Virus record (IMG/VR): IMGVR_UViG_3300033571_025026
Location: 1 to 40,934 of that record
Length of the DNA: 40,934 nt
Origin: a virus
Reading direction: 5' to 3' (one strand)
Shown here: positions 2,975 to 40,934 of the stretch, piece by piece
How the letters are laid out: each line of letters begins with the position of its first letter
How positions within the stretch are numbered: position 1 is the first letter of the stretch
Program-made: the position numbers and the translations under genes
The notes under the pieces: model-generated
Seen by the model: only the letters and a program-made list of their open reading frames with translations
What the model was told of the DNA's origin: nothing
Database searches by the model: none

Positions 2975-3177
2975 TTTGCGCAATTGTTTCCCCTGAGGTG
3001 GCCAATGAGTTCCAGCACTATAAAAAAGGTGTTCACCAAGTAATGTTTCTGGAATTACTTGATGGTTCCTTTGCAGCTCCAATCGCTATGGTAACCATCA
3101 TGCCTGAAGCTTTCCCTAGATTTACCGAAAGGTTTGTTGCTGAAGATGAATTCAAACGAAATGAATTAAAACTCTAA
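2971..3177 (+). CDS. Small tail-operon protein (hypothetical)
   Basis: This 68-residue protein starts four bases before the end of the fibre gene (ATGA overlap), so it is translationally coupled to it. It is predicted to be soluble, with an acidic C-terminus (FVAEDEFKRNELKL). Its position directly behind a putative receptor-binding protein would suit a fibre chaperone or accessory subunit, but nothing in the sequence proves this. It converges with the integrase gene and overlaps its 3' end by 12 bases. Confidence 0.55.
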   Translation: MICAIVSPEVANEFQHYKKGVHQVMFLELLDGSFAAPIAMVTIMPEAFPRFTERFVAEDEFKRNELKL

Positions 3178-4365
3178 TCCAGGCAACTTGGTTTTGATGT
3201 TGTCGTTGTTGAAACAGCCTAAAGATTTAAGATAAGCGTTCGTCGATGCAGGATCTTGATGACCAAGCTGCAATCCAAGTTCTGCTATAGTTAATCCATT
3301 CAAATAACCCATCACCGCGAAGGTGTGGCGCCAAGAATAAAAAGTGTATTGCTTATCGTAGTTTAGTGGGTTGAGTACCTTTTCTCTAAATCTAGAGGCG
3401 ATCTCCTCATCACGAAGTTTTTTCGGACCAGGACGCAGGTTATTTGAAAAAAGGTAGTATTCGCCAGGATATTGTTTGATGTTCATCGCCTTCAGCTCCG
3501 CATCTAGGTTAGGATGAATTACAACTTGACGCATGTGCGAATTCTTTGACCATTTACGGTCAATATGAATCTTATCGTCTGAAGCTTGGTAAATATCCGA
3601 GATCTTGATATTGGCAATCTCAACCGACCTGCAAGATGTATAGTACATGAATCTGCAAGCGAAGCCAATCTGAGGGTGACGCTCTTTCATGTATGACATT
3701 AACTGTGTTTGTTGCTCTGGTGTAAATGCAATATTCCTTCCTCTACCTGGTGATGGTCGATTTACTTTTACCCATGGATTTGTGGCAATGATTTCCATAT
3801 CGGCCATATCAAACCACAAAGTTTTCAATCCATTGATGTGGTTGTTGTGTGATCGAGCGGAAAGACCAACTCCTTGCATAAGAAAGGTCGAATAGTTTAC
3901 CGCATCTATGTACTTGAAATCTTTGATTAACTCATCGTCTCGCTTTTGCGAGTGCATGTATTGCTTGAACTTGTATATGACTTTCAAATATGAAGACTTG
4001 GTGTTTTCCTTCATATTCAGCTTTGTAGTTATTGCAAGATCAAGACACGCGAAGACTGTTGGCTCTGATTCTATTCTTTGCTTTGCAATTTCAGGCTGAA
4101 GAATCTTTTGAAATCCGACATGGTCGGGATCGTACACCGCTCCATGAGTTACCTTAAAGTTGATCTGCCGAATGAGTTCTTCACAGATCAATCTAAACTG
4201 AGGATGATCCTTATACTTGTCAAGATAGACCCTGAAACGTACGATCTTCTTTTGGGGAACAGAATAGGCATGATACTTAATATAGTACCTAGGATTCTTT
4301 GATTTAGGGTCTGAAACGACCAACTGAGCAAGCCTAAATTTGGCAGGTTTTACGTTATCTACCAT
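3166..4365 (-). CDS. int: Tyrosine recombinase (phage integrase)
   Basis: It catalyses site-specific integration and excision. I place the start at 4365 (MVDNVKPAKF, 399 residues). The frame is open further upstream to 4494, but that extension reads through the tRNA-derived attP sequence (NLVRIPLEP) and is unlikely to be coding. An arm-binding N-terminus precedes a SAM-like core-binding domain (NTKSSYLKVIYKFKQYM) and the catalytic domain. The first catalytic Arg is in YTSCRSVEIANI; the box II motif is YSWRHTF, with Tyr where His is common; then LGHQDPASTNAYLKSLG supplies His and the nucleophilic Tyr. It is the leftmost minus-strand gene, next to the attP and the repressor. Confidence 0.93.
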   Translation of the reverse strand: MVDNVKPAKFRLAQLVVSDPKSKNPRYYIKYHAYSVPQKKIVRFRVYLDKYKDHPQFRLICEELIRQINFKVTHGAVYDPDHVGFQKILQPEIAKQRIESEPTVFACLDLAITTKLNMKENTKSSYLKVIYKFKQYMHSQKRDDELIKDFKYIDAVNYSTFLMQGVGLSARSHNNHINGLKTLWFDMADMEIIATNPWVKVNRPSPGRGRNIAFTPEQQTQLMSYMKERHPQIGFACRFMYYTSCRSVEIANIKISDIYQASDDKIHIDRKWSKNSHMRQVVIHPNLDAELKAMNIKQYPGEYYLFSNNLRPGPKKLRDEEIASRFREKVLNPLNYDKQYTFYSWRHTFAVMGYLNGLTIAELGLQLGHQDPASTNAYLKSLGCFNNDNIKTKLPGLEF

Positions 4366-4381
4366 CTGAACATGAATCTTG

Positions 4382-4425
4382 AAAGTGACGCTAACCCACA
4401 CACCTACCGAGCGCAAAGTGACGCT
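4382..4425. repeat. Paired 11-bp direct repeats by attP, possible integrase arm sites
   Basis: AAAGTGACGCT occurs at 4382-4392 and again at 4415-4425, 33 bases apart, between the integrase start and the tRNA-like core. Short direct repeats beside an attachment core are typical arm-type binding sites for tyrosine integrases. Confidence 0.5.
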
Positions 4426-4464
4426 CGATAGATGTTTCGTGTTGAGTTTCAACACTATGGGAAG

Positions 4465-4485
4465 TGGCTCCAGAGGGATTCGAAC
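4465..4485 (-). other. attP: attP core: 3' end of a tRNA gene
   Basis: On the minus strand this reads GTTCGAATCCCTCTGGAGCCA: a T-loop (TTCGAAT), the 3' half of a T-stem, the 3' acceptor strand and a discriminator base. The preceding bases (CCTCG) do not complete the T-stem, so only the tRNA 3' end is present. This is what a phage carries to restore a tRNA gene after integration. The 5' acceptor strand of the target should read GGCTCCA; I cannot assign the amino acid. Confidence 0.75.
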
Positions 4486-4544
4486 GAGGTTCAAAAGGTC
4501 TATAAATTATTGTTAGATAGTGCTTTATAAATTTCTATCCATTT

Positions 4545-25145: not shown

Positions 25146-25589
25146 ATGGTAGCGAGAGAAATGAAGCTGTCCTATATGGACACAGGATTGACATTGCCAT
25201 TTACGGGCAACATTATGAACTCTTCAGAATTGGCAAAGATTCTGAGACAGATTTTTGACCCCAATGAGGTCATTTATAGGGAACACTTTTACGCCCTATA
25301 CTTTTCAAACAACAACACACTTTTAGGATACAAGCACATAAGTTCTGGAGGAATAACCGGAACAATGGCAGACATTAGAATTATCCTTCAAGGTGCTTTG
25401 TTAGCCAATGCAGTTGGTTTGGCAATTTCCCACAACCACCCAAGCGGAAATTTGAAGCCCTCGGTTTCAGACATTGAATTGACTCGAAAGATCAACCAAG
25501 CCGCGAAATGTATGGACATACGACTTTTTGACCATATCATTTTGACCGAACATTCTTATTACTCATTCAATGACGAAGGACAAATCTAA
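25146..25589 (+). CDS. RadC-family JAB domain protein
   Basis: The 147-residue protein is a RadC/JAB1-MPN domain. The metal-binding JAMM signature is in SHNHPSGNLKPSVSDIELT near residues 98-116, preceded by an acidic residue in the EHFYALYF strand. RadC-type proteins are very common on Bacteroidota conjugative elements; their activity is not settled, and a DNA-repair role is disputed. It lacks the usual N-terminal UPF0758 helix-hairpin-helix part. It is followed by a partial ArdC, the typical pairing on mobile elements, so this pair was probably acquired from one. Confidence 0.85.
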   Translation: MVAREMKLSYMDTGLTLPFTGNIMNSSELAKILRQIFDPNEVIYREHFYALYFSNNNTLLGYKHISSGGITGTMADIRIILQGALLANAVGLAISHNHPSGNLKPSVSDIELTRKINQAAKCMDIRLFDHIILTEHSYYSFNDEGQI

Positions 25590-25938
25590 TCTTAAAGCTA
25601 TGACACCGATTCAAGAAGTATTAAGCACCTTGGAAACTATCCAAGACAAACGCCAATTCTTAAAGACCATTTCCGCGGACCTTAAAGGAATGGTAAAAGA
25701 AGAAATCTATCCAACTTTAAACGCTGCAATAATTGCAACCATTTACCAGCCCGAAGGTCACCAAGTTCTCAAAACATACGAGCAGTGGAAGAAGGAAGGC
25801 AAGCAGGTGAAAAAAGGAGAAAAAGCCTTCATTGTTTGGGGTTCACCCAAGTTCAAAGAAACCGAGGACAAAGACGGAGAAGGAGCAGAGCCATTTTACC
25901 CAATCTGCTTTCTTTTTTCTAACTTGCAAGTAGAGTAG
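25570..25938 (+). CDS. Truncated ArdC-like antirestriction protein (N-terminal domain only)
   Basis: The protein has 122 residues from ATG 25570 (112 from the alternative ATG 25600). The segment YEQWKKEGKQVKKGEKAFIV near residues 70-90 is the hallmark of the ArdC N-terminal ssDNA-binding domain. Full ArdC proteins are about 300 residues with a C-terminal zinc metalloprotease (HExxH), which is absent here. The gene overlaps radC by 20 bases. A terminator hairpin begins 18 bases after its stop, so this short form appears to be stable, as seen on other Bacteroidota mobile elements. Confidence 0.75.
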   Translation: MTKDKSNLKAMTPIQEVLSTLETIQDKRQFLKTISADLKGMVKEEIYPTLNAAIIATIYQPEGHQVLKTYEQWKKEGKQVKKGEKAFIVWGSPKFKETEDKDGEGAEPFYPICFLFSNLQVE

Positions 25939-26602: not shown

Positions 26603-26984
26603 AGTTTAATTTTTAAGTTAATTTGATTGCATAGATAGGTAGGGAATGCTGATTTTGCAACTTGGAAATGCTTTTTTCGACAATAATAATCCTTCAAATA
26701 GCAAAAGTTTGGGGGTATTTTCACATGAAAGTTGTTATGCGATTGTCTACTTTTACACCGCGACATCACCGAAATCAACCATTGAGCGCATAACATATGT
26801 TATGTGCTCATTTTTTCGTCGTTCGGTTTGGAAAGTTGGAAATTTTTGTACGTTTGAAGTGCTGAAGTAACCATAATGTATCCAATCTTTTACAAACCGA
26901 ATTGCCAGGTGAGCGTTTTAGAAACGCAACTCCAAGCATTATGCTCTGACTTCAGCAGCACCTGGCAATACTTTTTTTCTACAC
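26603..26984. promoter_or_regulatory. Non-coding spacer with two structured leaders
   Basis: These 382 bases lie between the leftward SHOCT gene and the rightward gene at 26985. They contain an attenuator-like set at 26734-26816 and an A-B-A'-B' set at 26901-26997, listed separately. A 74-residue plus-strand frame here (26646-26870) has no protein-like pattern and is not kept. No other RNA gene is recognised. Confidence 0.6.
26734..26816 (+). promoter_or_regulatory. Attenuator-like leader 2 (terminator with competing stem)
   Basis: A terminator hairpin joins GAGCGCATAAC (26784-26794) to GTTATGTGCTC (26799-26809), one G-U, followed by T6. Upstream, GTTATGCG (26734-26741) can pair with CGCATAAC (26787-26794), the hairpin's left arm, and would prevent it. 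GCGACATCACC lies between them at 26760-26770. Confidence 0.6.
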
Positions 26985-26997
26985 ATGCTGAAGTCAG
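26901..26997 (+). promoter_or_regulatory. Structured leader 3: A-B-A'-B' stems covering a start codon
   Basis: A, ATTGCCAGGTG (26901-26911), pairs perfectly with A' CACCTGGCAAT (26959-26969), which is followed by T7: a terminator. B, CTGACTTCAGCA (26946-26957), pairs perfectly over 12 bp with B' TGCTGAAGTCAG (26986-26997), which covers the ATG at 26985. A small hairpin (GCGTTT/AAACGC, 26913-26927) sits in the A loop. The two long stems interlock as in leader 1. Confidence 0.7.
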
Positions 26998-27323
26998 AAA
27001 AAACACAAACCAAGGAGGAGCGCCATGCTCTTGAGTTAATCATTAAAGATAAACTCTACGAAACATTTTTTTTACAACGTGACATGGATATGGTTTACCC
27101 ATACCTGAATCAACTTTGTCAAAACTCGATCTTTCAACTTGCACAGGAAGATTCAACATTATCACCTTACGCTGTTGAATTTTTGCTAGATCTCAAGGAA
27201 ACAATCATGAGTATTGCAATCATGACCGGTGAAACAAAAGGTATCACTGCCTTTGACCACCAGAACATTCTTAAGCGCTTTCTTGATAACGTCAAGCAAA
27301 TCGAAAAAACTAAAAGAGAGTAA
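26985..27323 (+). CDS. Small protein under structured leader 3 (hypothetical)
   Basis: The protein has 112 residues and is mostly helical (LELIIKDKLYETFFLQRDMD; PYAVEFLLDLKETIMSIAIM; HQNILKRFLDNVKQIEKTKR). It has no membrane helix. Its first four codons form one arm of a 12-bp stem, so its translation is likely controlled by the leader. The gene is followed by a GCGACATCACC copy and a terminator. No family is recognised. Confidence 0.6.
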   Translation: MLKSEKTQTKEERHALELIIKDKLYETFFLQRDMDMVYPYLNQLCQNSIFQLAQEDSTLSPYAVEFLLDLKETIMSIAIMTGETKGITAFDHQNILKRFLDNVKQIEKTKRE

Positions 27324-27341
27324 TTGCGACATCACCTACAA
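27322..27341 (+). repeat. 20-base repeat unit, copy also at 20441-20460 (opposite strand)
   Basis: AATTGCGACATCACCTACAA at 27322-27341 is identical to the minus strand of 20441-20460, which is the A' arm of leader 1. Related forms occur at 20391 (GCGACATCATCTACAA) and 26760 (GCGACATCACCGA). Confidence 0.75.
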
Positions 27342-27362
27342 ATATCACTACGCCCAACAAAG

Positions 27363-27388
27363 AGCCTCGATTTATCGGGGCTTTTTTT
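27363..27388 (+). terminator. Intrinsic terminator before promoter C
   Basis: AGCCTCGAT (27363-27371) pairs with ATCGGGGCT (27374-27382), one G-U, two-base loop, and runs into T7. Promoter C begins at the next base. Confidence 0.85.
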
Positions 27389-27426
27389 ATGTCCTTTCCT
27401 GTTCATTTTGCCAGCTCTAATATTGC
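27389..27426 (+). promoter_or_regulatory. Putative phage promoter C (TGTCCTTTC class) upstream of PAS cargo unit
   Basis: ATGTCCTTTC at 27389-27398 is followed after 19 bases by TAATATTGC at 27418-27426; the gene starts at 27437. It follows a terminator with no gap, as promoter D does. It overlaps an upstream ATG, which is therefore not used as the gene start. Confidence 0.55.
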
Positions 27427-27436
27427 TTCGACTATT

Positions 27437-28003
27437 ATGCACGAAGTAGAATCTTTACGGAATCTTGATGTTTACCACGGCATCATCTGCTTTATCCTAG
27501 ATGATGATGGTACCGTCATTTTCGGAAACCGTCGCTTCGAATCGCTTTTCAAAAATGCTTTAGGCAGCCACTTTCAAAAAAATCTGCATACCACTTCCAG
27601 AGCTTCATGGTTTAAACTGACTGAAAAGTGCATGCAATTCCCAAATACACTATTCGAGGATAATGTACTTGCACTTTGTACCGGCCATGTTTATGAAAAA
27701 ATCGATTTTGAGATTTACTTCAGAGAAGGAAAGTTCGGGATAGTTGGTTATAAAAGAGTGGATCCAAACAAACCAACTGAAGGCATATCATTTTTGGAAG
27801 AAAGAATGCGAGAAATCGCCTTTTTCCAAAATCATGAATTTCGACCGCCAGTTGCAAGAATCTTAGGAGTCTCAAGTCTTTCTATTGCCTCTAATGACCT
27901 GGGAGAATTGAAAAACTATGCCCTTCTGATGCGAAAAGATGCTGAACAACTCGATGAATTCATCAAGAAAATCACCGCTTTAACCAATGTTTCCAATGGA
28001 TAA
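27437..28003 (+). CDS. PAS-HisKA protein lacking a kinase ATPase domain
   Basis: I choose ATG 27437 (MHEVESLRNLDVYHGIIC, 188 residues) because the ATG 27389 coincides with the promoter. Residues 1-110 look like a PAS sensor (GIICFILDDDGTVIFGNRRF, then LFEDN, FEIYFREGKFGIVGYKRV). Residues about 122-185 form a HisKA dimerisation domain with H-box FFQNHEFRPPVARILG (His133), followed by a second helix with RKDAEQLDEFIKKITALT. No HATPase domain (N, G1, G2 boxes) follows. It could accept or remove phosphate from host kinases or regulators. It heads a four-gene cargo unit. Confidence 0.75.
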   Translation: MHEVESLRNLDVYHGIICFILDDDGTVIFGNRRFESLFKNALGSHFQKNLHTTSRASWFKLTEKCMQFPNTLFEDNVLALCTGHVYEKIDFEIYFREGKFGIVGYKRVDPNKPTEGISFLEERMREIAFFQNHEFRPPVARILGVSSLSIASNDLGELKNYALLMRKDAEQLDEFIKKITALTNVSNG

Positions 28004-28220
28004 GATCAAACAGTTTTTTATTCGTCTTTACCTCGGATGGAAACAACATTGGAGAATTCAGCTTCCCGGAGGCTTTCTTCTGGTTTTAGCCTTTTTAATG
28101 GCTCAAGGAAAAGTCACCGGTACCGAGTTCGCCTTGATGCTTTCAGCATTTATCCCTTATTACACCAAGCTCATCCATAAATCCACAAATAAATCAACAA
28201 CCAAAACCCAATCAAAATGA
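27996..28220 (+). CDS. Small membrane protein of cargo unit
   Basis: I choose ATG 27996 (MDKIKQFFIRLYLGWKQHW, 74 residues), which overlaps the previous stop. One or two hydrophobic helices are seen (GGFLLVLAFLMAQG; FALMLSAFIPYY), then a lysine- and threonine-rich tail. It may be a membrane anchor or a small holin-like protein. It overlaps the next gene by four bases. The true holin is more likely the gene at 31855. Confidence 0.55.
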   Translation: MDKIKQFFIRLYLGWKQHWRIQLPGGFLLVLAFLMAQGKVTGTEFALMLSAFIPYYTKLIHKSTNKSTTKTQSK

Positions 28221-28789
28221 GACCAATTCTCTTATTTCTGGGGCTAACCTTCGCCTTGTCGAGCTTTGCCCAAACTGTTATCCATCGGGATACTAAAGTA
28301 TCCGCGCCTGTCGTCGCTCCACCTGTTGCCGAGCTTCATGATGTGTACCAACCAATTGTTGCTTTCGATGAAACTGAATTCGGGCTTGAAAAGCTTCGGA
28401 CTGATTCAAGAATCGTAGAATTAAACGGCTTGCAATACAGCCTTCCTGGTGTCTGGAAGCCCATTGATCGGTTTAAGCCTGGAACCTATGCGCAAGTTTA
28501 CCTTGATCTAGTGCATCAACGCGATTCATTTAGGCATTTATCGGAGCATCTGCAAGCGCAATCAATACCACTATCTAAGGTCTTGCATGATTACGATTCG
28601 GTCAAACTCGCCAATGATTCATTAACAGCAGCCATTGGAAAGCCTCAAGAAGTCCCCGCTATTCCCAATATAAGCCCAGGAAGCTTCGAAACGCCACCAT
28701 TTTCTATCGATCCATTACTGTTTATAGGTGCAATGGCCGTCATATGGCTTGTAACACCAGCGTTTATACCAATACCTAGTGTGGTGTGA
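28217..28789 (+). CDS. Exported protein with C-terminal membrane anchor (hypothetical)
   Basis: The protein has 190 residues. A signal peptide (MRPILLFLGLTFALSSFAQ) ends in an SFAQ cleavage-type site. The mature part has a proline-rich stretch (SAPVVAPPVAEL), a helical segment (AQVYLDLVHQRDSFRHLSEH), and a C-terminal hydrophobic helix near residues 167-188 (LLFIGAMAVIWLVTPAFIPI). The likely location is the periplasm with a membrane anchor. No family is recognised. It overlaps the next gene, whose GTG start shares four bases. Confidence 0.6.
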   Translation: MRPILLFLGLTFALSSFAQTVIHRDTKVSAPVVAPPVAELHDVYQPIVAFDETEFGLEKLRTDSRIVELNGLQYSLPGVWKPIDRFKPGTYAQVYLDLVHQRDSFRHLSEHLQAQSIPLSKVLHDYDSVKLANDSLTAAIGKPQEVPAIPNISPGSFETPPFSIDPLLFIGAMAVIWLVTPAFIPIPSVV

Positions 28790-29193
28790 GACATTTACTG
28801 CTAATTGCAATGATGGCGGCCTCGGTCGCCATCTTTGCGCAGCAGTATCGGGTCACTGCTGTTAAAGTGTCCACTGTGGACAGCTCCCGTTCCAACACCG
28901 CGAAAGTTGCACCAAGGGTTAAACTCGTTGAAGATTCAACCGTTGTTTGGATTCCAACTGTATTCACGCCCAATTGGGATGGTCTCAATGATCTCTTTAA
29001 ACCGGTGGTTATGAATGCTGATTCATTCCATTTTGAAATTTATTCCCGCGAAGGTCAACTGCTTCAAACCCTTAAAGCTGGTCAATCGTGGAAAGGCTCT
29101 GGTGTTTCTTCCACCTACATTTGGCTTGCCAAATGGATTGATCGAAAAGGTGTCCGACATCGAGAAGGTGGAATACTGATTGAATTAAACTAA
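28786..29193 (+). CDS. Secreted protein with T9SS type B (CHU_C) sorting domain
   Basis: The protein has 135 residues and begins at GTG 28786 (GTGA overlap with the preceding stop). A signal peptide (MRHLLLIAMMAASVAIFAQ) is followed by a short spacer and a CHU_C-type domain from about residue 56: VWIPTVFTPNWDGLNDLFKP, then FHFEIYSREGQLLQTL, WKGSG, STYIWLAKWIDRKG, and a C-terminal GILIEL strand. This matches the gliding-motility/T9SS type B sorting signal found at the C-terminus of large secreted Bacteroidota proteins. Here it is almost the whole mature protein. It could occupy or use the host secretion machinery. Confidence 0.85.
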   Translation: MRHLLLIAMMAASVAIFAQQYRVTAVKVSTVDSSRSNTAKVAPRVKLVEDSTVVWIPTVFTPNWDGLNDLFKPVVMNADSFHFEIYSREGQLLQTLKAGQSWKGSGVSSTYIWLAKWIDRKGVRHREGGILIELN

Positions 29194-29220
29194 AAGCCCT
29201 GATTGTCTAGGGCTTTTTTT
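29193..29220 (+). terminator. Intrinsic terminator at end of cargo unit
   Basis: AAAGCCCT (29193-29200) pairs perfectly with AGGGCTTT (29209-29216) and runs into T7. It is directly followed by promoter D. Confidence 0.85.
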
Positions 29221-29261: not shown

Positions 29262-29534
29262 ATGGTACTCAAAGACGCGCTGCAAATGATGGAAGAATCG
29301 GACGGAATCACCGGCGATCGCCAGACGTTTGATGTCGAATTCATTACCTGCAACCGCGAAAAAAAGACCGGTGGTGAAATTATCCGACTTAAAGGTGTTC
29401 GAAAGGTTGGATCTCGATTCCACCAGAAAAAACTTCAGATGATCAACGTGCAAGCCCCAGGCAGCTCTTATCATCCATTCCCTATTCACATTCGACTCAT
29501 TTTAAGAGTTAACAACGAAAAAATTTATTGGTAA
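29262..29534 (+). CDS. Pre-portal small protein (hypothetical)
   Basis: The protein has 90 residues with mixed strands and basic residues (FDVEFITCNREKKTGGEIIR; PFPIHIRLILRVNNEKIYW). It immediately precedes the portal gene, sharing one base (TAATG). Small genes at this place occur in Bacteroidota siphophages, but I cannot name the family. The GGCGATCGCC core at 29313-29322 lies within it. Confidence 0.6.
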   Translation: MVLKDALQMMEESDGITGDRQTFDVEFITCNREKKTGGEIIRLKGVRKVGSRFHQKKLQMINVQAPGSSYHPFPIHIRLILRVNNEKIYW

Positions 29535-30850
29535 TGATCAAATCGCTTGGTAATGGTGTAATTCTCGCTGCTTCTACAGGTGTTATTATGACTCCCGCTG
29601 GACCTGCTCCAAAGGTTTCAGTTCCAGAAGTTATTGGCGGCAGTGATAAATTTGTGCCTTGGGGTGACGATAATTTACAGCCCCAAAACAGGGTTAAGAA
29701 AGCCGAAAAGAGTACAATTATCGGCCCTGCTATTGATAAGCTTGTTCGCTTTGCTTATGCCGCGGGAATTCAAGCAGGGAAAATTGATATTGTCAATAAC
29801 GAAGAGGTTTTTGTGCCCGTGCGTGATCAGAATTTCCTTGATTTTAAACGCAAGTCAAACCTTAATCGCTATTGTTTAGAATCCTTTTCAGATCTCTTCT
29901 GGTTTGGAAATTCATTTCCCAATTTGATCATTACAAAAGATCGATCAAAAACAATCCAGCTCTTTGTCGAGCAAGCCTGTTATTGCCGCTGGGGAAAGCC
30001 AAATGAAAAAACAGGATTGGTGGAAACTTGCTACATCTCTGCAAATTGGGATAAAGGCAATGTGGATCTTGAAACAACTGTGAAGGCAACTGTTGTTGAT
30101 CCTTATTTTGATCCTGTAACGCAGATCAAAGAAGGAACTGATTACAGATATATTATTCCGGTTGATTTTCCTGCTCCCAATTACCACCATTACCAAATGC
30201 CTTCTTGGAATGGCGCCATAACTTCTGGTTGGTTGGATTTCACCTACCAAATCCCTGAGTTTAAAAAGGCAATGATGGCTAATCAGATTTCTCTGAAATA
30301 CCATGTAGAGGTCGAGGACAAATATTGGCCTATTGCTTTTGACAATTGGTCTAAAATGTCAGAATTGGAAAAGGAAGCCGCTAAAAGTGAATGGTTGGTA
30401 GCATTTACCGATAATCTTTCTGATACAAAAAACGCGAATAAATCTCTTTTGACTGAGTTTACTATCACCAGAGACGGCAAAGAGCAAAGTGTCATCAAGA
30501 TTACTCCCATCGACGACAAGATTAAATCAGGTGTTTATGTCGAAGATTCACAAGAAGCCTCTGCACACGTAATCAATTCACTTGGTTTGGATCCAACACT
30601 TTTCCCTTTTAGCAGTGGAAAAGGAATGTCAGCCGGATCTGGTAGTGATAAAAACTCAGCCTATAATCTTCTCATGGTATCGCTTAAACCATACCATGAC
30701 CTAGTTCTTGAGCCTCTGTATGTTATTCGGGACTACAACGGCTGGGACCCAGAGCTTGAATTCCGATTCGCTCACACCTTCATGGCTGAATCCAAATCAG
30801 GAAAGCCGCGCATGCAAGAGGAAGATTCTAAAGCTAAACCCGCCAACTAA
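29534..30850 (+). CDS. Portal protein
   Basis: I choose ATG 29534 (MIKSLGNGVILAASTG, 438 residues), which shares the A of the previous stop codon. The N-terminal VPWGDDNLQPQNRVKKAEKS motif is typical of Bacteroidota phage portals, as is the CLESFSDLFWFGNSFPNLII segment near residue 115. The rest is mixed alpha/beta with a C-terminal LEPLYVIRDYNGW segment. The portal forms the dodecameric ring at the capsid vertex. It lies before the adaptor gene, the standard order. The family call is by motif pattern. Confidence 0.8.
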   Translation: MIKSLGNGVILAASTGVIMTPAGPAPKVSVPEVIGGSDKFVPWGDDNLQPQNRVKKAEKSTIIGPAIDKLVRFAYAAGIQAGKIDIVNNEEVFVPVRDQNFLDFKRKSNLNRYCLESFSDLFWFGNSFPNLIITKDRSKTIQLFVEQACYCRWGKPNEKTGLVETCYISANWDKGNVDLETTVKATVVDPYFDPVTQIKEGTDYRYIIPVDFPAPNYHHYQMPSWNGAITSGWLDFTYQIPEFKKAMMANQISLKYHVEVEDKYWPIAFDNWSKMSELEKEAAKSEWLVAFTDNLSDTKNANKSLLTEFTITRDGKEQSVIKITPIDDKIKSGVYVEDSQEASAHVINSLGLDPTLFPFSSGKGMSAGSGSDKNSAYNLLMVSLKPYHDLVLEPLYVIRDYNGWDPELEFRFAHTFMAESKSGKPRMQEEDSKAKPAN

Positions 30851-31854: not shown

Positions 31855-32223
31855 ATGAATAATTTCTTCAAACGTTGGCCATTTATGTGGCTCATTTTTC
31901 CGCTTTCAATCCTGATGATTTTCTCAGGTCCATTCTTCGCGTGGCTTGATGCAAAATTGGTCGATTTAACAGGGGAGCAATCCATGATCCCGCTTTCAAC
32001 CCTTGCATTGCTTGCAATGGGCTTGTTCGCTTGGATGGCTTCGGCCGATCTCTCCTTTGGAGCAATTCGCTTCAATTTCAAATGGCTTTTTGACTACTAC
32101 CTAAACGATTCCAAATGCAAAGAAGATTTCTATTCTATGCCACCATCGCAGCGATTGTGGTATTTATTGGCAGTACTAGCACTGTTCATGCTAACCTTCG
32201 CGATTGTAATTGCGCAAATCTAG
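31855..32223 (+). CDS. Probable holin (three-TM membrane protein)
   Basis: The protein has 122 residues and three predicted membrane helices: FMWLIFPLSILMIFSGPFFA near residue 10, IPLSTLALLAMGLFAWMASA near 44, and LWYLLAVLALFMLTFAIVIA near 100. This fits a class I-like holin, which makes membrane holes at the end of infection. It lies directly upstream of the endolysin, which starts inside its 3' end in another frame. The small size and location support the call; no family signature is seen. Confidence 0.65.
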   Translation: MNNFFKRWPFMWLIFPLSILMIFSGPFFAWLDAKLVDLTGEQSMIPLSTLALLAMGLFAWMASADLSFGAIRFNFKWLFDYYLNDSKCKEDFYSMPPSQRLWYLLAVLALFMLTFAIVIAQI

Positions 32224-32717
32224 TCAATGCTATTCGGGAAGCGGCCGCCAAGGATATTGGCATCCGCGAAAAGACCGGGAAAAATGATCACCCCGAAATT
32301 GCCCGATGGAATAGGAGGGTAGGCACTAAGGTAAATGCTCCCTACTGTGCTTCATGGGTAGTTAATGTGCTTCTTGAAGCAGGTGTTATGGATGTTCCGG
32401 TCACCGCTTGGAGTCCTTCACTTTTGCCTAAGAGTGCACGGGTAATGTGGATGAATAAGTTGCTTCCAGGAATGAAGCTAGAACCCTTCGATATCCTTGG
32501 AATGTACTTCAAATCCCGCAAGCGAATCGCTCACGTTGGATTTTTCTACTACCAAGTTGGAGATCACATTCGGTCGATGGAAGCCAACACTTCTTTAACT
32601 GCTGTTTCTGGAAGTAACGAGGACAGAGACGCGACCACGGGCGGCGGTGTGGTCTATAAAACCAGACACCAACGCGCCTGGTATGGTGCATCACGATTTA
32701 AAAATTGCTTCAAATGA
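32115..32717 (+). CDS. Endolysin with N-terminal signal sequence (cysteine peptidase/amidase-like)
   Basis: The protein has 200 residues. A signal peptide or anchor (FLFYATIAAIVVFIGSTSTV, HA) opens it. The catalytic domain has the pattern of a CHAP/C40-like peptidoglycan hydrolase common in Bacteroidota phages: IGIREKTGKNDHPEIARWNR near 50, catalytic Cys in APYCASWVVNVLLEAGV near 77, and His in RIAHVGFFYY near 139. The first 109 bases overlap the holin gene in a different frame, so both a holin helix and a signal peptide are encoded by the same DNA. It is followed by a spanin-like gene. Confidence 0.8.
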   Translation: MQRRFLFYATIAAIVVFIGSTSTVHANLRDCNCANLVNAIREAAAKDIGIREKTGKNDHPEIARWNRRVGTKVNAPYCASWVVNVLLEAGVMDVPVTAWSPSLLPKSARVMWMNKLLPGMKLEPFDILGMYFKSRKRIAHVGFFYYQVGDHIRSMEANTSLTAVSGSNEDRDATTGGGVVYKTRHQRAWYGASRFKNCFK

Positions 32718-34621: not shown

Positions 34622-36179
34622 TTTTATTGAAGAATCCCTAGATCCAATCCATTATTCAAAAGATGAATTTTGGATTCGATGCACCTCAGATTTATTTACT
34701 GAGCCAGTTATTCAATCAGGTTGGGTTAAGCTGGTGAATCTACCTTCCGACGGATTGGTTTGGAGGTTTCTTTGCCCTAAAACGGACTTTTCATTCAGTT
34801 GGAAAACTACCGTTACAAATCCAGCTTCTCAAGTTCAAATTGGAGCTTCATTTACTGATTGCTATTTAAATGCCCGAAACTGGTTAAATGCCAATTATTT
34901 CTTTTCGAAAAATTGGGTTGCCTCATTCGATGCTACCAATATGCGAGTGACTTTTTTTGCGCGATTTTTTGGAGATCAATTTAATTTTGATGATACCAAG
35001 TTTGATCCCGCGAATACGCTTTTTGATCAGACCCTTGGAACCCTTTCTGCAAATAACCTTCAAGTTGGTTTGGTGGTTTTTTCCCGCCAAGATTCAGCAA
35101 GACATCAAGTAATTGCTGAACACGTTGCGCCATTGTTTACCTCAGAAAACATGGTTCTTTTTCGCATTGATGAAGACCTTCACCCTTTTACAAAATTCGA
35201 CGCTCCAGGAATTAATCAAAATACCGCTTCTGCTGCACTGAATCATGTTTTTGAATATGATCTTGGCATTTATGATTTAAGTGGATCTCCGCCAACGCCA
35301 GGTCCGATCTCATTTGAAAATTCACTCCGAATAGTTCGAGGAGGATCACGCTTTGAAAATTGGAATCTCTGGGGCAATTTCCTAACCGGTTACATGATTC
35401 CAGAAAACAATGGAATCCTTCACCGCCAGCTAGCGAGAGAAGCTACAAAGCTGCAGGAGCTTTATACCTATTGGTTCGATTCTTCAGTTGGAAACAATTA
35501 CACTCTGAAGGCTACCATCAAGCTGCAATCTGGTACCACATTCACAACTTCAGTACTTAACTTCTCTGGTCCAGGTTCAAGGGTGTGGATTCTTCCAACA
35601 GGAATTTCAAACACCAACGTTGCCGCCGCTTGCACTTCAAATGGATATTCTGTTGATGATGTTGATGAAGTTTATTTCAATATCGAAACTCAGTTTGGAG
35701 GAGCATTAATTGCAAATGCAACCATGCTCAAATTAGTGCCTTCCAATTTTGGAGAAAAGTATTTTCTATTTGAAAATTCTGCTGGTGGCGCTGAAGTCAT
35801 TCGCCTTTATGGTGCAAGCTCGGAAGGCATTGAAGTGTCAAAGGAAAAATACCGCCAACTCGATATTCCAGAAAGATATTGGGAGCGCAGAAAAGACGGC
35901 AGCAGAACCATTGAATTCAGGGAAGTATATTCAATTTCTTCTGGTCCAATTTCTTTGGAAAACTTAAGAAATTACCTCGACATCATTATTTCCAATAATG
36001 TATGGGAAATTGTCAATGAAGATTCAATTTTCGGCTACAGATACCCAATCCAAATTTCTGAAGGATCATTCGTGATTCGTCAAATTTCAGGCAATGGAGA
36101 ATATCTCTATTCGATGAGCTTCCAATACACGCGCGCCTACGAAGAACGCTCAAACGGTCAACTCAATAATTTCTTCTAA
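34614..36179 (+). CDS. Large tail protein (probable baseplate/tail-tip component)
   Basis: I choose ATG 34614 (MASFIEESLDPIHYSKDE, 521 residues). It is rich in beta strands and aromatic residues (WIRCTSDLFTEPVIQSGWVK; LVWRFLCPKTDFSFSWKTTV; NFGEKYFLFENSAGGAEVIR), in the manner of baseplate or distal tail proteins. A late segment (RYWERRKDGSRTIEFREVYS) and a C-terminal FQYTRAYEERSNGQ end it. It is followed with a one-base overlap by another large tail protein. No catalytic motif is seen. It probably forms the tail tip together with its neighbour. Confidence 0.6.
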   Translation: MASFIEESLDPIHYSKDEFWIRCTSDLFTEPVIQSGWVKLVNLPSDGLVWRFLCPKTDFSFSWKTTVTNPASQVQIGASFTDCYLNARNWLNANYFFSKNWVASFDATNMRVTFFARFFGDQFNFDDTKFDPANTLFDQTLGTLSANNLQVGLVVFSRQDSARHQVIAEHVAPLFTSENMVLFRIDEDLHPFTKFDAPGINQNTASAALNHVFEYDLGIYDLSGSPPTPGPISFENSLRIVRGGSRFENWNLWGNFLTGYMIPENNGILHRQLAREATKLQELYTYWFDSSVGNNYTLKATIKLQSGTTFTTSVLNFSGPGSRVWILPTGISNTNVAAACTSNGYSVDDVDEVYFNIETQFGGALIANATMLKLVPSNFGEKYFLFENSAGGAEVIRLYGASSEGIEVSKEKYRQLDIPERYWERRKDGSRTIEFREVYSISSGPISLENLRNYLDIIISNNVWEIVNEDSIFGYRYPIQISEGSFVIRQISGNGEYLYSMSFQYTRAYEERSNGQLNNFF

Positions 36180-38392
36180 TGTTCGGGATAAAAATAGACG
36201 GTGAGTTTCTAGATAACCCTATTGACGGGGAAGTGACCTTTGAATTAAATTTTGGAGGTTTCACAGATACCGTCATTCCCGGATCTGTAACCTATCCAAA
36301 CAACTTCCCAGCAAGCGACAAAAATAATCGCCTGCTTAAAAATGCGAAGGTTATTGATGCAGCTTCTAAATTGGTGTACTATGACGCTGAGCTTTACTTG
36401 TTTGATAATTTCTACGATAAATGCAAAGTAGTTCGACTCAACACCAGAAAAGACCTCTACAGACTTTCGGTGGTGATCAACAACCTAACCATTGACATTC
36501 AAGGAAAGACGCTTCGAGATATTGATTGCAGTTCGCAAAATCGAACCTTTTCAAAGATCTCACAGCTAATTGATTTTATGAATTGGTGCAATGCTTCAGG
36601 AAATGAACACCTATTTGTTTTTCCACGCATTCAAAACACTTCAGCCTTCGAAGACATCGCTGATTCTGCACCGTACTTGAAAAACTTTTACGACGGTATA
36701 ATTAACCGTTATGTGGACGGTCCTATTATTGTTCCTTATGTTTATTTTGCTGATAAAGAAGCTGAATTTAAACGTTATTTCTTTGCTCCTAAAATTCGGG
36801 AAATAAAGCTTCTCGAATTGCTTTTTGCACAGTACGGATATCGCCTTTCAGGTTCATTTATAAATGACCAGGAAGCAAGATCCTTGTCAATGTATTCCAA
36901 CCGATTAATTAAAGCTGATCAAAAAGAATTAATTCAGGTTGGTTGTAAGGCCTACAGTGGTGACATGCCAGCGTTGCCGCCATATCACTTTCCTGTGCTT
37001 ACGCTTGATTCAGACCCGACTAATCAAGATTATAATGGAGCGCTTGGAACTTTTATTGTTCCCAATGATGGCTTTATTCTGGGGAATATCCCAAACATCA
37101 AAGTTAAAAGCGACCTAAATTATCACCTTGGAATAAAAGGGAAATTTACTTCGGATAGCGAAACTGTTACAATCTGGTTAACCGTTAGAGATCCTTTAAC
37201 CGTTGGAACTATTGATCCCGTATTCAATGAATTCTTTTTTACCATTGATGTTGCGTCCAACGAAGAACTTGATTACATTTTTTATCAAGCCATTAATTTT
37301 GGTGCAGCTCTCGGACCAACACCACCCGATGACCTTGTTCTCACATTTGGATTTAGCAATGTTACCGCTGGTAATGATATATCGATCGAAGATCTAATTA
37401 TCACATTAAATCCAATTTTGGAGGATGAACCAGAGGCTGAAATTGAAACACTCGATTGTGCTCAATTCCTGCCCAATAAAAGCATCGATGAGTGGCTTCT
37501 AGGGTTAAAGACGAACTTTAACTTAAATGTTCAATGGAATCCGTTCTCGAGAACAGTAACCATTGACTATCTCGAAGATGCATTAAAGAAGCCAGTTGAA
37601 AACATAGATCACAGGATTGGCGATGATTTCCCGTTGAAAACACCTGAAGAAATCAACGGATATAAAATCCGTTATGACTTCGATTCGCTCACTGATCAAC
37701 TTCTCGATGAGAATTTTAAAGATCTAGATCCTGTTCAATTTAAAGGTTTCGAGCAACCAACCGAGAGGTCAACCGGAGCTTATTACTTCGATCCTGCCAA
37801 TGGTCAAGTGAGAAAATTTGGATTTAATTCTATCCGCTGGAGCTTCTACAGCGATGCGTATTATCCACTAACAATTGGAGGAGGAGAAAAGGAAATTGTC
37901 ATCTCTGGAAGAGCCCCAATTTTAATGCGTGCTGATTCAGATAATGTCACATTCCAGGCATCGGTAAAAACGCCTATGCATTTCCCGCGATTTGGAATGT
38001 CTGCAGATGCATTTAGCGATGTTCGAATTGGCTACTATCGAGGATATACGCCAAGTTCGGACGGCAGTTTGTTATTGCCTACTTCAACACCGCTTTCAAT
38101 TGCCGCTGATGGTGAAACTGTGATTGGTTTTTCTGAATTGTGGTTAATTAAAGAGCGTGAAAATTCAATTTACAATCTCTTTTTCCGCAGATGGTTTTCG
38201 ATGATTAAAAATGCTGAGCAATTGCGCGATGTGATCATGATCGACATGCCTTTTATTCAGAACATTTTTAGCACTCAAAAGCAAATTCAGAACACAATTT
38301 TTATTGTCGGGAAATTGATTTTCACCGTGAAAAACGGTGCAATCAAAGAAGCTGAAATCGAACTCTACAGAAACAATTTCGAGCATGAGTAA
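36179..38392 (+). CDS. Large tail-tip/baseplate protein
   Basis: The protein has 737 residues. Its start, MFGIKIDGEFLDNPIDGEVT followed by FTDTVIPGSVTYPNNFPASDKNN, is typical of the large tail-tip proteins of Bacteroidota siphophages (strand, then FP/N-rich turn). Middle segments (LLELLFAQYGYRLSGSFIND; EWLLGLKTNFNLNVQWNPFS) also fit. It shares one base with the previous stop, and the next gene overlaps it by eight. It probably contributes to the hub that contacts the host. Confidence 0.65.
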   Translation: MFGIKIDGEFLDNPIDGEVTFELNFGGFTDTVIPGSVTYPNNFPASDKNNRLLKNAKVIDAASKLVYYDAELYLFDNFYDKCKVVRLNTRKDLYRLSVVINNLTIDIQGKTLRDIDCSSQNRTFSKISQLIDFMNWCNASGNEHLFVFPRIQNTSAFEDIADSAPYLKNFYDGIINRYVDGPIIVPYVYFADKEAEFKRYFFAPKIREIKLLELLFAQYGYRLSGSFINDQEARSLSMYSNRLIKADQKELIQVGCKAYSGDMPALPPYHFPVLTLDSDPTNQDYNGALGTFIVPNDGFILGNIPNIKVKSDLNYHLGIKGKFTSDSETVTIWLTVRDPLTVGTIDPVFNEFFFTIDVASNEELDYIFYQAINFGAALGPTPPDDLVLTFGFSNVTAGNDISIEDLIITLNPILEDEPEAEIETLDCAQFLPNKSIDEWLLGLKTNFNLNVQWNPFSRTVTIDYLEDALKKPVENIDHRIGDDFPLKTPEEINGYKIRYDFDSLTDQLLDENFKDLDPVQFKGFEQPTERSTGAYYFDPANGQVRKFGFNSIRWSFYSDAYYPLTIGGGEKEIVISGRAPILMRADSDNVTFQASVKTPMHFPRFGMSADAFSDVRIGYYRGYTPSSDGSLLLPTSTPLSIAADGETVIGFSELWLIKERENSIYNLFFRRWFSMIKNAEQLRDVIMIDMPFIQNIFSTQKQIQNTIFIVGKLIFTVKNGAIKEAEIELYRNNFEHE

Positions 38393-38822: not shown

Positions 38823-40934
38823 TGTCAGACGCAACCAACGACGCACGGGTAAACGTGTACATTAACGGACAATCAGGAATCGCTGAGATCGATAAGCTTG
38901 AGCGAAAAATGATGAAACTCGGTAGAGAAATCAATCGGGTTGGGAAAGATTCTGAAATGGGCAAAAAGCTTGCTTCTGAACTGAAATTAGCTGAAGGAGA
39001 ACTTGATCAACTGACTAAGAAGCTGGATATCACAAAAATGTCCATTAGACAGCTTGAGGCAGAGGGAAGAAGACTTCGCAGGCTCAGAGATATGGCGCAG
39101 CCTGGAACGGAGGAATTTAAACGTCTGAATCGTGAGCTTGAAAAAGTCAATACAAGAATGACGGCCGTGAAAACAGGAATGGGATCATTTGGACAGTCGA
39201 TGCAGCTTGTTTGGGATCAATTAAAAGGGTTCAATTTGGCAGTAATTGCATTTTTAGCAGCCGTTAAAGCGATGCAATTAATTAAGGACATGATTTCAGG
39301 AGCTTCTGAATTGAGCGACCAATTGGCTGATGTTCAGAAAACGACCGGCATGACCACACGTGAAGTCGAGGCACTTAACAAGCAATTAAGTAAAATTGAT
39401 ACAAGGACAGCCACAAAAGAATTAAGAAACATGGCCATCGTTGCTGGTCAATTAGGTATCGCAAAGGAAGATGTGGCAGGTTTCGTCAAAGCTGTTGATG
39501 TTGCAAACGTCGCGTTGGGTGATGAATTTACAGGTGGTGCGCAGCAAGTGGCAGAGGAGATGGGTAAACTTAGGAATGTGTTTACTGATTTCCGCACAAC
39601 AAACGTTTCAAATGATATCCTTCAGATTGCAAACGCTTTAAATGTACTTGCTTCTGAAGGAGCAGCAACAGGTCCGGTTGTAGCTGAAAATGCAAATCGA
39701 ATTGGTGGTTTTGGTATTCAGGCTGGGTTGACAACAGGGCAAGTATTAGGTCTAGCAGCTTCAATGCAAGAGTTGAATATCAACTCAGAACGCGGAGGAA
39801 CAGCAATAACCCGAATCATTCAAAAAATGCTCACCGATGTTGAAACATTTGCGGCAGTTGCTGGAGAGAAAGTTGAGCCCTTTAAAAAATTGCTTGAAAC
39901 TGATTTGTTTGGCGCATTCATGAAAGTGGTTGAAGGATCCAAACAAGTTGGATCATCAAATACAGCTCTAGCAAAGGTAATTCAGGAACTTGATGTTGAT
40001 GGAGCAGGAGCATCTGAAGTAATGGCAAAGTTTGGAGGAAACCTTGAACTTGTTAAACAAAAGGCAGACACAGCTACCAATGCGCTAAAAAGTCAGAATT
40101 CAATTATGAATGAATTCAACTTGAAAAATGAAAATGCTGCTGCGGTAGCTGCTAAAGTTGGTAAAGCAATTTCAGGTTGGTTTTCTTCTGTTTTTGTTTC
40201 AAAGGCAAATGATTTTTTGGTTTGGCTCGGACAGGCTACCGGACTAACTTCAACATTAAGCCAAAAGCTTGAACAAGAAAGGATTGATCTGCTTGTGCTT
40301 GAGTCACGATTAAACAACGTGAACATGAAACAAGAAACAAGAGTTTCATTAATCAAGCAATTGCAAGAAAAATATCCTGACTACCTTAAAAATCTCGATG
40401 CTGAAAAAGCAACCAGTGAAGAATTGAGAGAAGCGATTAAGGGCATTAATGAGAATTTAATCAATAAAATCATTCTTCAAAAGAAATACGAACAAGCGAA
40501 AAAAGAAGGAGATAAGGCCGGTGATCTATTCTTGCAAAATCTTGAACGTGAAAAGAACATTCAAAGCACTCTTGTTCAGTTAAGAAATAAGGATGCTAGC
40601 CTTTATATCCCACAAGGTGATGTGATCAAAAAAGCGGAATTTGTTTTAAAGCAAATGGGCGATAAGCTTAGTGCTGGTGAAAAGTTTAATCCTTTCGGAG
40701 ATTTCAGAAAACTTGAAAATGATTTAATGGCCTATAAGGTCACTATTTCCGCAATTAATGGTTACACAGCAACTTCGAACAGGCTATTGAATGAGCGTGA
40801 GGAACTTGCTAAAAAACTAGGTATTACACTTGAAGAAGTAGCTAAAAAGGACGAGAATCTAAATGGCGGAGACGGTGGTAAGGGAGGTGGTGGCACTTCA
40901 ACGATGCCAGGAGATGACGAGAAAAAGAAAAAGG
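38822..40934 (+). CDS. Phage tail tape-measure protein, N-terminal part (continues at base 1)
   Basis: This protein sets tail length and occupies the tail lumen. The frame opens at ATG 38822, sharing one base with the stop of the preceding gene (TAATG), and is still open at the right edge. ATG 40904 is in frame with it and equals base 57, so the full protein is about 1246 residues. The first 130 residues are charged coiled coil. A hydrophobic stretch (FNLAVIAFLAAVKAM) follows, then a TP901/PhageMin-type region around residues 170-420 (SELSDQLADVQKTTGMTT; NSERGGTAITRI). It is the last and largest gene of the tail block, after a gp10-like gene. The family call is confident; exact domain borders are not. 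Confidence 0.93.
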   Translation, partial: MSDATNDARVNVYINGQSGIAEIDKLERKMMKLGREINRVGKDSEMGKKLASELKLAEGELDQLTKKLDITKMSIRQLEAEGRRLRRLRDMAQPGTEEFKRLNRELEKVNTRMTAVKTGMGSFGQSMQLVWDQLKGFNLAVIAFLAAVKAMQLIKDMISGASELSDQLADVQKTTGMTTREVEALNKQLSKIDTRTATKELRNMAIVAGQLGIAKEDVAGFVKAVDVANVALGDEFTGGAQQVAEEMGKLRNVFTDFRTTNVSNDILQIANALNVLASEGAATGPVVAENANRIGGFGIQAGLTTGQVLGLAASMQELNINSERGGTAITRIIQKMLTDVETFAAVAGEKVEPFKKLLETDLFGAFMKVVEGSKQVGSSNTALAKVIQELDVDGAGASEVMAKFGGNLELVKQKADTATNALKSQNSIMNEFNLKNENAAAVAAKVGKAISGWFSSVFVSKANDFLVWLGQATGLTSTLSQKLEQERIDLLVLESRLNNVNMKQETRVSLIKQLQEKYPDYLKNLDAEKATSEELREAIKGINENLINKIILQKKYEQAKKEGDKAGDLFLQNLEREKNIQSTLVQLRNKDASLYIPQGDVIKKAEFVLKQMGDKLSAGEKFNPFGDFRKLENDLMAYKVTISAINGYTATSNRLLNEREELAKKLGITLEEVAKKDENLNGGDGGKGGGGTSTMPGDDEKKKK
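40848..40934. repeat. Terminal direct repeat, right copy
   Basis: This is an exact copy of bases 1-87. Removing one copy gives a circle of about 40847 bases. The join lies inside the glycine-rich linker of the tape-measure gene (GGDGGKGGGG). Confidence 0.95.

Follow-up and report, generated by a model that had tools for sequence, protein, structure and literature searches.

The closest described systems are the type B C-terminal domain (CTD) proteins of Flavobacterium johnsoniae (SprB, Fjoh_3952 and others, with their PorP/SprF shuttles), in which the domain is borne by larger, often adhesive proteins, frequently encoded beside a shuttle gene (PMC12618676, PMC9143113). In this species, the SprB CTD was no longer secreted when any one of five CTD motifs was mutated; the shuttle proteins are scarce and restrict the secretion of overproduced type B substrates (PMC12618676). 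Phages too have been reported to encode sorting domains of the type IX secretion system (T9SS), namely the type A proteins of Cryophage (PMC7468147) and proteins of crAss-like contigs (PMC6949934), but these domains carry cargo (endoglucanase, GH39, PA14, BACON). The gene analysed here (28786–29193, plus strand) lies in a stretch of viral DNA of 40,934 nucleotides, hereafter the window, and encodes a 135-aa protein predicted to be exported. It shares with the F. johnsoniae proteins the four-strand CHU_C/TIGR04131 fold and, by inspection, a signal peptide, but it has neither cargo nor an accompanying shuttle gene and its motifs are degraded; unlike the Cryophage and crAss-like domains, it is a stand-alone type B domain that appears to copy a host stand-alone protein. 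The initial annotation, made from the sequence, knew of no phage example of such a tag without cargo. A phage gene that copies a stand-alone host tag, with its secretion motifs lost, appears to be new.

The gene has a GTG start codon that overlaps the stop codon of the upstream gene by four bases (GTGA). The first 18 residues (MRHLLLIAMMAASVAIFA; 28786–28839), in which the AlphaFold2 (AF2) model of the protein alone places a helix (residues 2–15), were read by inspection as a signal peptide, cleavage being presumed before QQY (MRHLLLIAMMAASVAIFA/QQ). There follow an N-terminal segment (residues 19–53, QQYRVTAVKVSTVDSSRSNTAK...; 28840–28944), with pLDDT values below 50 at residues 21–29 and 32–44, and the CHU_C domain (residues 54–135; 28945–29190), delimited from profiles, alignment and the model. 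The TIGR04131 profile matched residues 56–105 (E = 7e-7, 29.3 bits) and PF13585 residues 56–117 (E = 7e-6, 26.5 bits), significant values that nonetheless lie below the curated cut-offs of 35 and 27 bits, respectively; a profile check of this kind had been proposed together with the original assignment. The model, computed from an alignment of 24 relatives (two rows from GenBank phage records were left out), reached a pLDDT of about 95 across residues 50–135 and contains the four strands expected of a type B fold (78–86, 92–97, 109–119 and 124–133). Its best viral structural neighbours are annotated as 'Gliding motility-associated, C-terminal domain' (TM 0.59, E = 9e-8). A fold search of the PDB returned no solved structure at E < 0.001, only generic Ig/PKD-like folds, in line with the statement that the structure of any type B CTD is not known (PMC12618676). 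PDB sequence matches to designed WD40 propellers were discarded as repeat artefacts (5–6 bits per repeat). To judge by its sequence, then, the protein contains a real but diverged CHU_C domain, not a chance resemblance, and the description of an exported protein made almost wholly of this domain has held. That it is a virion protein with a signal peptide was considered unlikely.

The genome carrying this gene ends in a direct repeat of 87 bp, found by repeat comparison (1–87 and 40848–40934), which indicates a circular, complete genome of about 40.8 kb. A tyrosine integrase (3166–4494, minus strand), a large terminase and a head maturation protease identify it as that of a temperate tailed phage. 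The CHU_C gene closes a separate transcription unit (26985–29193), being the last of five genes, all on the plus strand. The others specify a 112-aa protein to which no function was assigned (26985–27323), a 204-aa protein with PAS and histidine-kinase dimerisation (H-box) domains (27389–28003), a 77-aa small membrane protein that is holin-like at best (27987–28220; phrog_3428, E = 0.22) and, directly upstream of the CHU_C gene, a 190-aa protein with a signal peptide, a proline-rich region and a C-terminal transmembrane segment (28217–28789). Terminator-like sites of the intrinsic type precede the unit (26783–26810, plus strand) and directly follow the CHU_C gene (29192–29217, plus strand). 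A Bacteroidota-type promoter match (TTTG-N-TANNTTTG; 26827–26856, plus strand) is well placed, although the genome holds two such matches where about three would be expected by chance. Beyond the unit lie the putative portal gene (29528–30850; the name was guessed from its position, with no family match) and an endolysin gene (32115–32717).

A second copy of the gene was found in a metagenome-assembled genome, 'Bacteroidetes bacterium isolate D1_MAG_00037', by a genome scan with an alignment of the putative portal. The contig (L103) contains a prophage running from position 1 to about 36 kb, with its integrase at 34964–36295, joined to a tRNA-Arg gene, uvrB and other chromosomal genes (gene names were given by inspection). 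Between terminase and putative portal it encodes a PAS/H-box protein, another product whose start resembles a signal peptide and whose C-terminus is hydrophobic, and a CHU_C homologue of 132 aa that is 60% identical to the window protein across 99% of its length. The signal peptide (by inspection), the GTG start and the overlap with the preceding gene are likewise present, and the homologue independently matched the profile (26.6 bits, E = 5e-6). This prophage was reached through the putative portal only: a single-protein scan of the viral and genome contigs with P0001 gave no match, and a scan of the viral contigs with the two-row alignment A4 gave no further relative. None of the 75 genome loci whose DNA was examined contained a gene like that of the window besides L103, and the CHU_C domain was absent from ten related viral contigs found via the putative portal. 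Identities between the two phages were 49% for the capsid, 57% for the putative portal, 39% for the PAS/H-box protein, 65% for the terminase and 68% for the endolysin. For the CHU_C pair, dN was 0.38 and dS 1.9 (NG86; dS is near saturation), giving a dN/dS of about 0.2. It is the related L103 prophage whose host genome is known, and this genome encodes SprA, 10 PorP/SprF-family proteins and 44 TIGR04131 frames.

Two explanations that leave secretion aside can be weighed against this conservation. The gene might be an incidental passenger with no function for the phage, the accessory region between terminase and putative portal being variable in other relatives; this is very improbable, since a distant relative has the gene in the same place, at 60% identity and with a low dN/dS. 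It might otherwise be a captured host gene that now works in the envelope with the product of 28217–28789, for example in lysis or in the periplasm. The overlap of these two genes, the order and similar architecture kept in both phages and the small membrane protein gene just upstream (27987–28220) would fit such a role, which we nevertheless consider improbable: the endolysin and a possible spanin-like gene are located elsewhere, and the middle of the 190-aa protein cannot be aligned with its L103 counterpart, unlike the CHU_C product. The 190-aa protein was also considered as a conserved sequence partner and set aside, only its architecture and C-terminal hydrophobic segment agreeing between the phages (7 of 500 shuffles).

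Other features common to the two phages were noted. The PAS/H-box protein (27389–28003; L103:5345–5965; H-box HEFRPPVARILG) lacks an ATPase domain and adjoins the CHU_C gene in both; it could titrate or tap a host phosphorelay. At 25146–25938 a RadC-like protein is followed by a short protein with only the N-terminal anti-restriction domain of ArdC, a pair that is also present in the L103 prophage (46% and 55% identity). An 11-base match (GGGATTCGAAC, 4475–4485) to the 3′ part of the tRNA-Arg gene occupied by the L103 prophage lies at the 5′-end of the integrase gene; such a match is at chance level for the search performed, its place being suggestive of an att core.

When a profile built from the two phage proteins was run against ten genomes of the order of the L103 host, it detected large proteins and also short frames of 157–201 aa. 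The latter represent a conserved chromosomal protein consisting of a signal peptide, a (K)YRVTA(F/Y)K...SLSN.AEA.PK segment and a canonical CHU_C domain (61 bits with TIGR04131), and nothing else (e.g. L200:6571–7038, 155 aa, in the G011 order). The phage proteins have the same layout, but score 29 bits in the window version, lack WDG and NRWG, have a hairpin deleted and are encoded in a prophage operon. They align with the host small protein from the YRVTA segment onward, so that homology to this family of apparently detached tags spans the whole mature protein, the YRVTA...S.SN segment included. The N-terminal segment of the window protein reached a score of 63, and that of the L103 protein 53, with the host small proteins; with 20 ordinary CHU_C proteins from the same genome the maxima were 32 and 27. 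The observed score was reached by none of 1000 shuffles for the window and by one of 1000 for L103. The roughly 35 residues that the initial annotation placed before the domain are, by these comparisons, no neutral spacer: they have a homologous counterpart in the host small protein. In a tree of 28 rows the phage and host small proteins were joined (support 96/91), with a long phage branch; in a tree of 41 rows, which added other phage proteins and more distant hosts, this grouping was neither supported nor rejected (p-AU 0.3). On the sequence evidence, the window protein is very probably a phage-borne, diverged homologue of a host protein that resembles a detached T9SS type B tag.

Immediately 3′ of the host small gene lies a gene whose product of ∼1,900 aa has a signal peptide and consists of PKD repeats; neither NCBIfam nor Pfam models revealed a T9SS sorting domain in it. 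The gene pair spans L200:742–7038, with equivalents in L203, L235, L263, L266, L267, L268 and L270. Across the genomes of the order the PKD protein stops at one common point in the middle of an FN3-like domain (...GSWEVLKTVPGSVLTSVDEN*), the copy in G021 being broken by stops near its end. When the last half-domain was compared with a model of the protein's own preceding FN3 domain, it aligned only up to position 67–68 of 105 in all 11 proteins, and adding the start of the host small protein raised the FN3 score and extended the match in five of six cases. The phage segment joined to the host half-domain did not raise the score above that of shuffles. Similar proteins with a like ending occurred in 14 of 149 genomes of the class. 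Among eight upstream stretches read, a small CHU_C gene was near the start of the big gene in five (L263, L266, L267, L268 and L270; in L267 with one gene in between) and was missing from those of L264, L265 and L269. The natural reading is of the host small protein as a separately made sorting tag, which would complete the FN3 domain of its cargo; the pair would then be a possible case of a T9SS tag supplied in trans. No description of a separately made host sorting tag was found in the literature searched, and the finding points to an unexpected arrangement in which a sorting domain is a protein of its own beside a giant surface protein that has none. The general view that this domain is the tag of large host proteins, on which the initial annotation relied, is to that extent incomplete. 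The phage gene is not upstream of a large PKD protein, its neighbours being the protein with signal peptide and transmembrane segment and the putative portal region.

The host small gene is divergent to a histidine kinase/response regulator pair in several contigs (L200:7267–8834, L203:6278–7824, L204:6292–7823 and L205:5954–7476). An origin of the phage PAS/H-box protein from this kinase gene was considered and rejected, the matches being to the generic dimerisation domain only.

The two phage versions were then compared with the residues invariant in the host family, here meaning those shared by at least 11 of the 12 host small proteins; the assignment to motifs A–E of PMC12618676 is our own assumption. 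The window protein keeps 9 of 9 invariant residues of the N-terminal segment and 9 of 10 of motif A (IPTVFTPNWDGLNDLF), but 3 of 5 of motif B, 2 of 4 of C, none of 3 of D and 1 of 3 of E. The conserved motif set of a type B domain is therefore incomplete. For the L103 protein the corresponding counts are 7, 9, 3, 2, 0 and 1. Retention in the N-terminal half (18 of 19 in the window, 16 of 19 in L103) thus differs from that in motifs B–E (6 of 15 in both), with Fisher P values of 0.0015 and 0.012, respectively. At the NRWG position the phages have SREG (window) or TREG, WDG has become WKG with deletion of a short hairpin, and motif D VY and the C-terminal strand, with its VTL(I/V), are altered; the W and G of motif C and the G of motif E are retained. 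These losses are common to both phages and rare elsewhere: a W[D/N-like]G motif was present in 78 of 80 viral and 20 of 20 host CHU_C domains, and an RWG-like motif in 77 of 80 and 20 of 20. While the domain is of the CHU_C type, as first proposed, 'address tag' may be the wrong word for a version in which several conserved secretion-motif residues are lost.

One reading of these changes is that the phage protein is a functional replacement tag, or a small surface protein, secreted by the T9SS with a particular shuttle, which would mask a receptor or relocate the giant host protein. The fold appears intact in the model, motif A and the three residues of motifs C and E named above are kept, the stand-alone CHU_C proteins of other phages are mostly canonical in their motifs, and type B CTDs determine the final location of proteins in F. 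johnsoniae (PMC12618676). We regard this reading as unlikely: NRWG, WDG, motif D and the C-terminal strand are changed in both phages, all five motifs were required for secretion of the SprB CTD, and the mature protein of about 117 aa is shorter than the 150–235 aa reported for efficient type B secretion (PMC12618676). Nor was a shuttle found among the phage genes.

We tentatively favour, at somewhat less than even confidence, the idea that the window protein acts as a decoy for, or competes with, the detached tag of the host or its shuttle. Interference with the T9SS or a change of the cell surface, as envisaged in the initial annotation, may thus be what the protein brings about. The host tag would consist of a signal peptide, half an FN3-like domain and a CHU_C domain, and be encoded upstream of a PKD protein devoid of a sorting domain. 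The phage protein would be exported by Sec to the periplasm, where the retained N-terminal half and motif A would let it compete with the host tag for a scarce shuttle of the PorP/SprF type or for the FN3 half left open in the giant protein. Its own passage would be incomplete or poor owing to the lost residues of motifs B–E, and either the giant surface protein or further clients of the type B route would remain inside. The surface of the infected cell or lysogen would thereby be altered, for instance with fewer phage receptors (superinfection exclusion) or less adhesion, presumably to the benefit of the phage. Such a benefit is plausible because, in Flavobacterium columnare exposed to phage, resistance arises from mutations in sprA, gld and spr genes (PMC9233685); with T9SS and gliding mutations so often found in phage-resistant cells of this species, superinfection exclusion would be a sensible purpose for control of the T9SS by a prophage.

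Several results argue for this competition: the homology between the N-terminal segment and the host small protein and the supported clade in the smaller tree; the retention of the N-terminal half against the shared loss in motifs B–E; the identity of 60% kept between the phages, above those of capsid (49%) and putative portal (57%), with the dN and dS given above; the SprA, shuttles and TIGR04131 frames of the L103 host; the host gene pair and the common mid-FN3 ending of its giant protein; the scarcity of shuttles and the five-motif mutation results in F. johnsoniae (PMC12618676); and the absence of a shuttle gene from the phage. Against it count the failure of the phage segment to raise the FN3 score above shuffles, as five of six host segments do, and the lack of resolution in the larger tree. 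Moreover, the motif losses could be an adaptation to another shuttle and not a loss of secretion, and the role of the host small protein as the giant protein's tag is itself deduced. A broader variant is a general jammer that attaches to the SprA translocon, or to several of the PorP/SprF shuttles, and retards type B secretion as a whole, with no special link to the PKD protein. The limiting amounts of shuttles (PMC12618676) and the 10 PorP/SprF proteins in the host of the L103 prophage would suit it, but it does not explain why the N-terminal segment specifically resembles the host small protein, and with about 44 type B proteins made by the host a weakly expressed competitor would have little effect; we consider it quite unlikely. 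The complete scheme of competition with the tag, in which some Bacteroidota make a separate tag that joins a giant adhesin by way of a split FN3 domain, a secretion-defective copy of this tag being carried by a temperate phage as a dominant-negative decoy that strips or changes the cell surface, is put forward as doubtful. To our knowledge no phage protein has been known to act on the T9SS; if competition of this kind did occur, the window protein would be the first, and a natural tool for blocking it.

A search for stand-alone CHU_C genes in other phages, suggested with the original assignment, showed that the window gene is not unique: small CHU_C genes are found on many phage contigs as well as in two huge phages. 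A scan of viral sequences gave 159 CHU_C matches, of which 80 were kept. Frames of at most 260 codons were present in 26 of the 80 loci (some of them near-copies and one cut by a contig end), two of these frames having little beyond a signal peptide and the domain. Like the window protein, the small phage forms (L102, L097, L019 and L020; BFVD A0A6J5L8Z9 and A0A6J5NJX2) consist of a signal peptide and CHU_C without a large cargo, as do forms of ∼180–200 aa (L044 and L059), the longer ones carrying an Ig/PKD-like domain; unlike it, they mostly have canonical motifs and lack the YRVTA segment.

Seven CHU_C genes were found in LR756502.1 and LR745206.1 (L014–L020), unannotated huge phages of ∼640 kb, two of them stand-alone (L019:1486–1836, minus strand, and L020:1363–1743). 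An exported CHU_C family of 740–840 aa, starting with QYCPxLGPDQxLPCGV, is widespread on viral contigs (L035–L049, L052, L064, L078 and others, the match being at about 4001). Some phages contain cassettes of at least three consecutive signal-peptide genes, in the order Ig-like, PKD_6-like and then PKD/Ig plus CHU_C (L059:2492–4276, L071:2514–4267, L068:2567–4276, L060:2468–4267 and L044:1724–4267), in which the upstream proteins share an end such as ...LSPIQHN or ...LGAISHN. The cassettes of L044 and L030 adjoin a likely lysis module.
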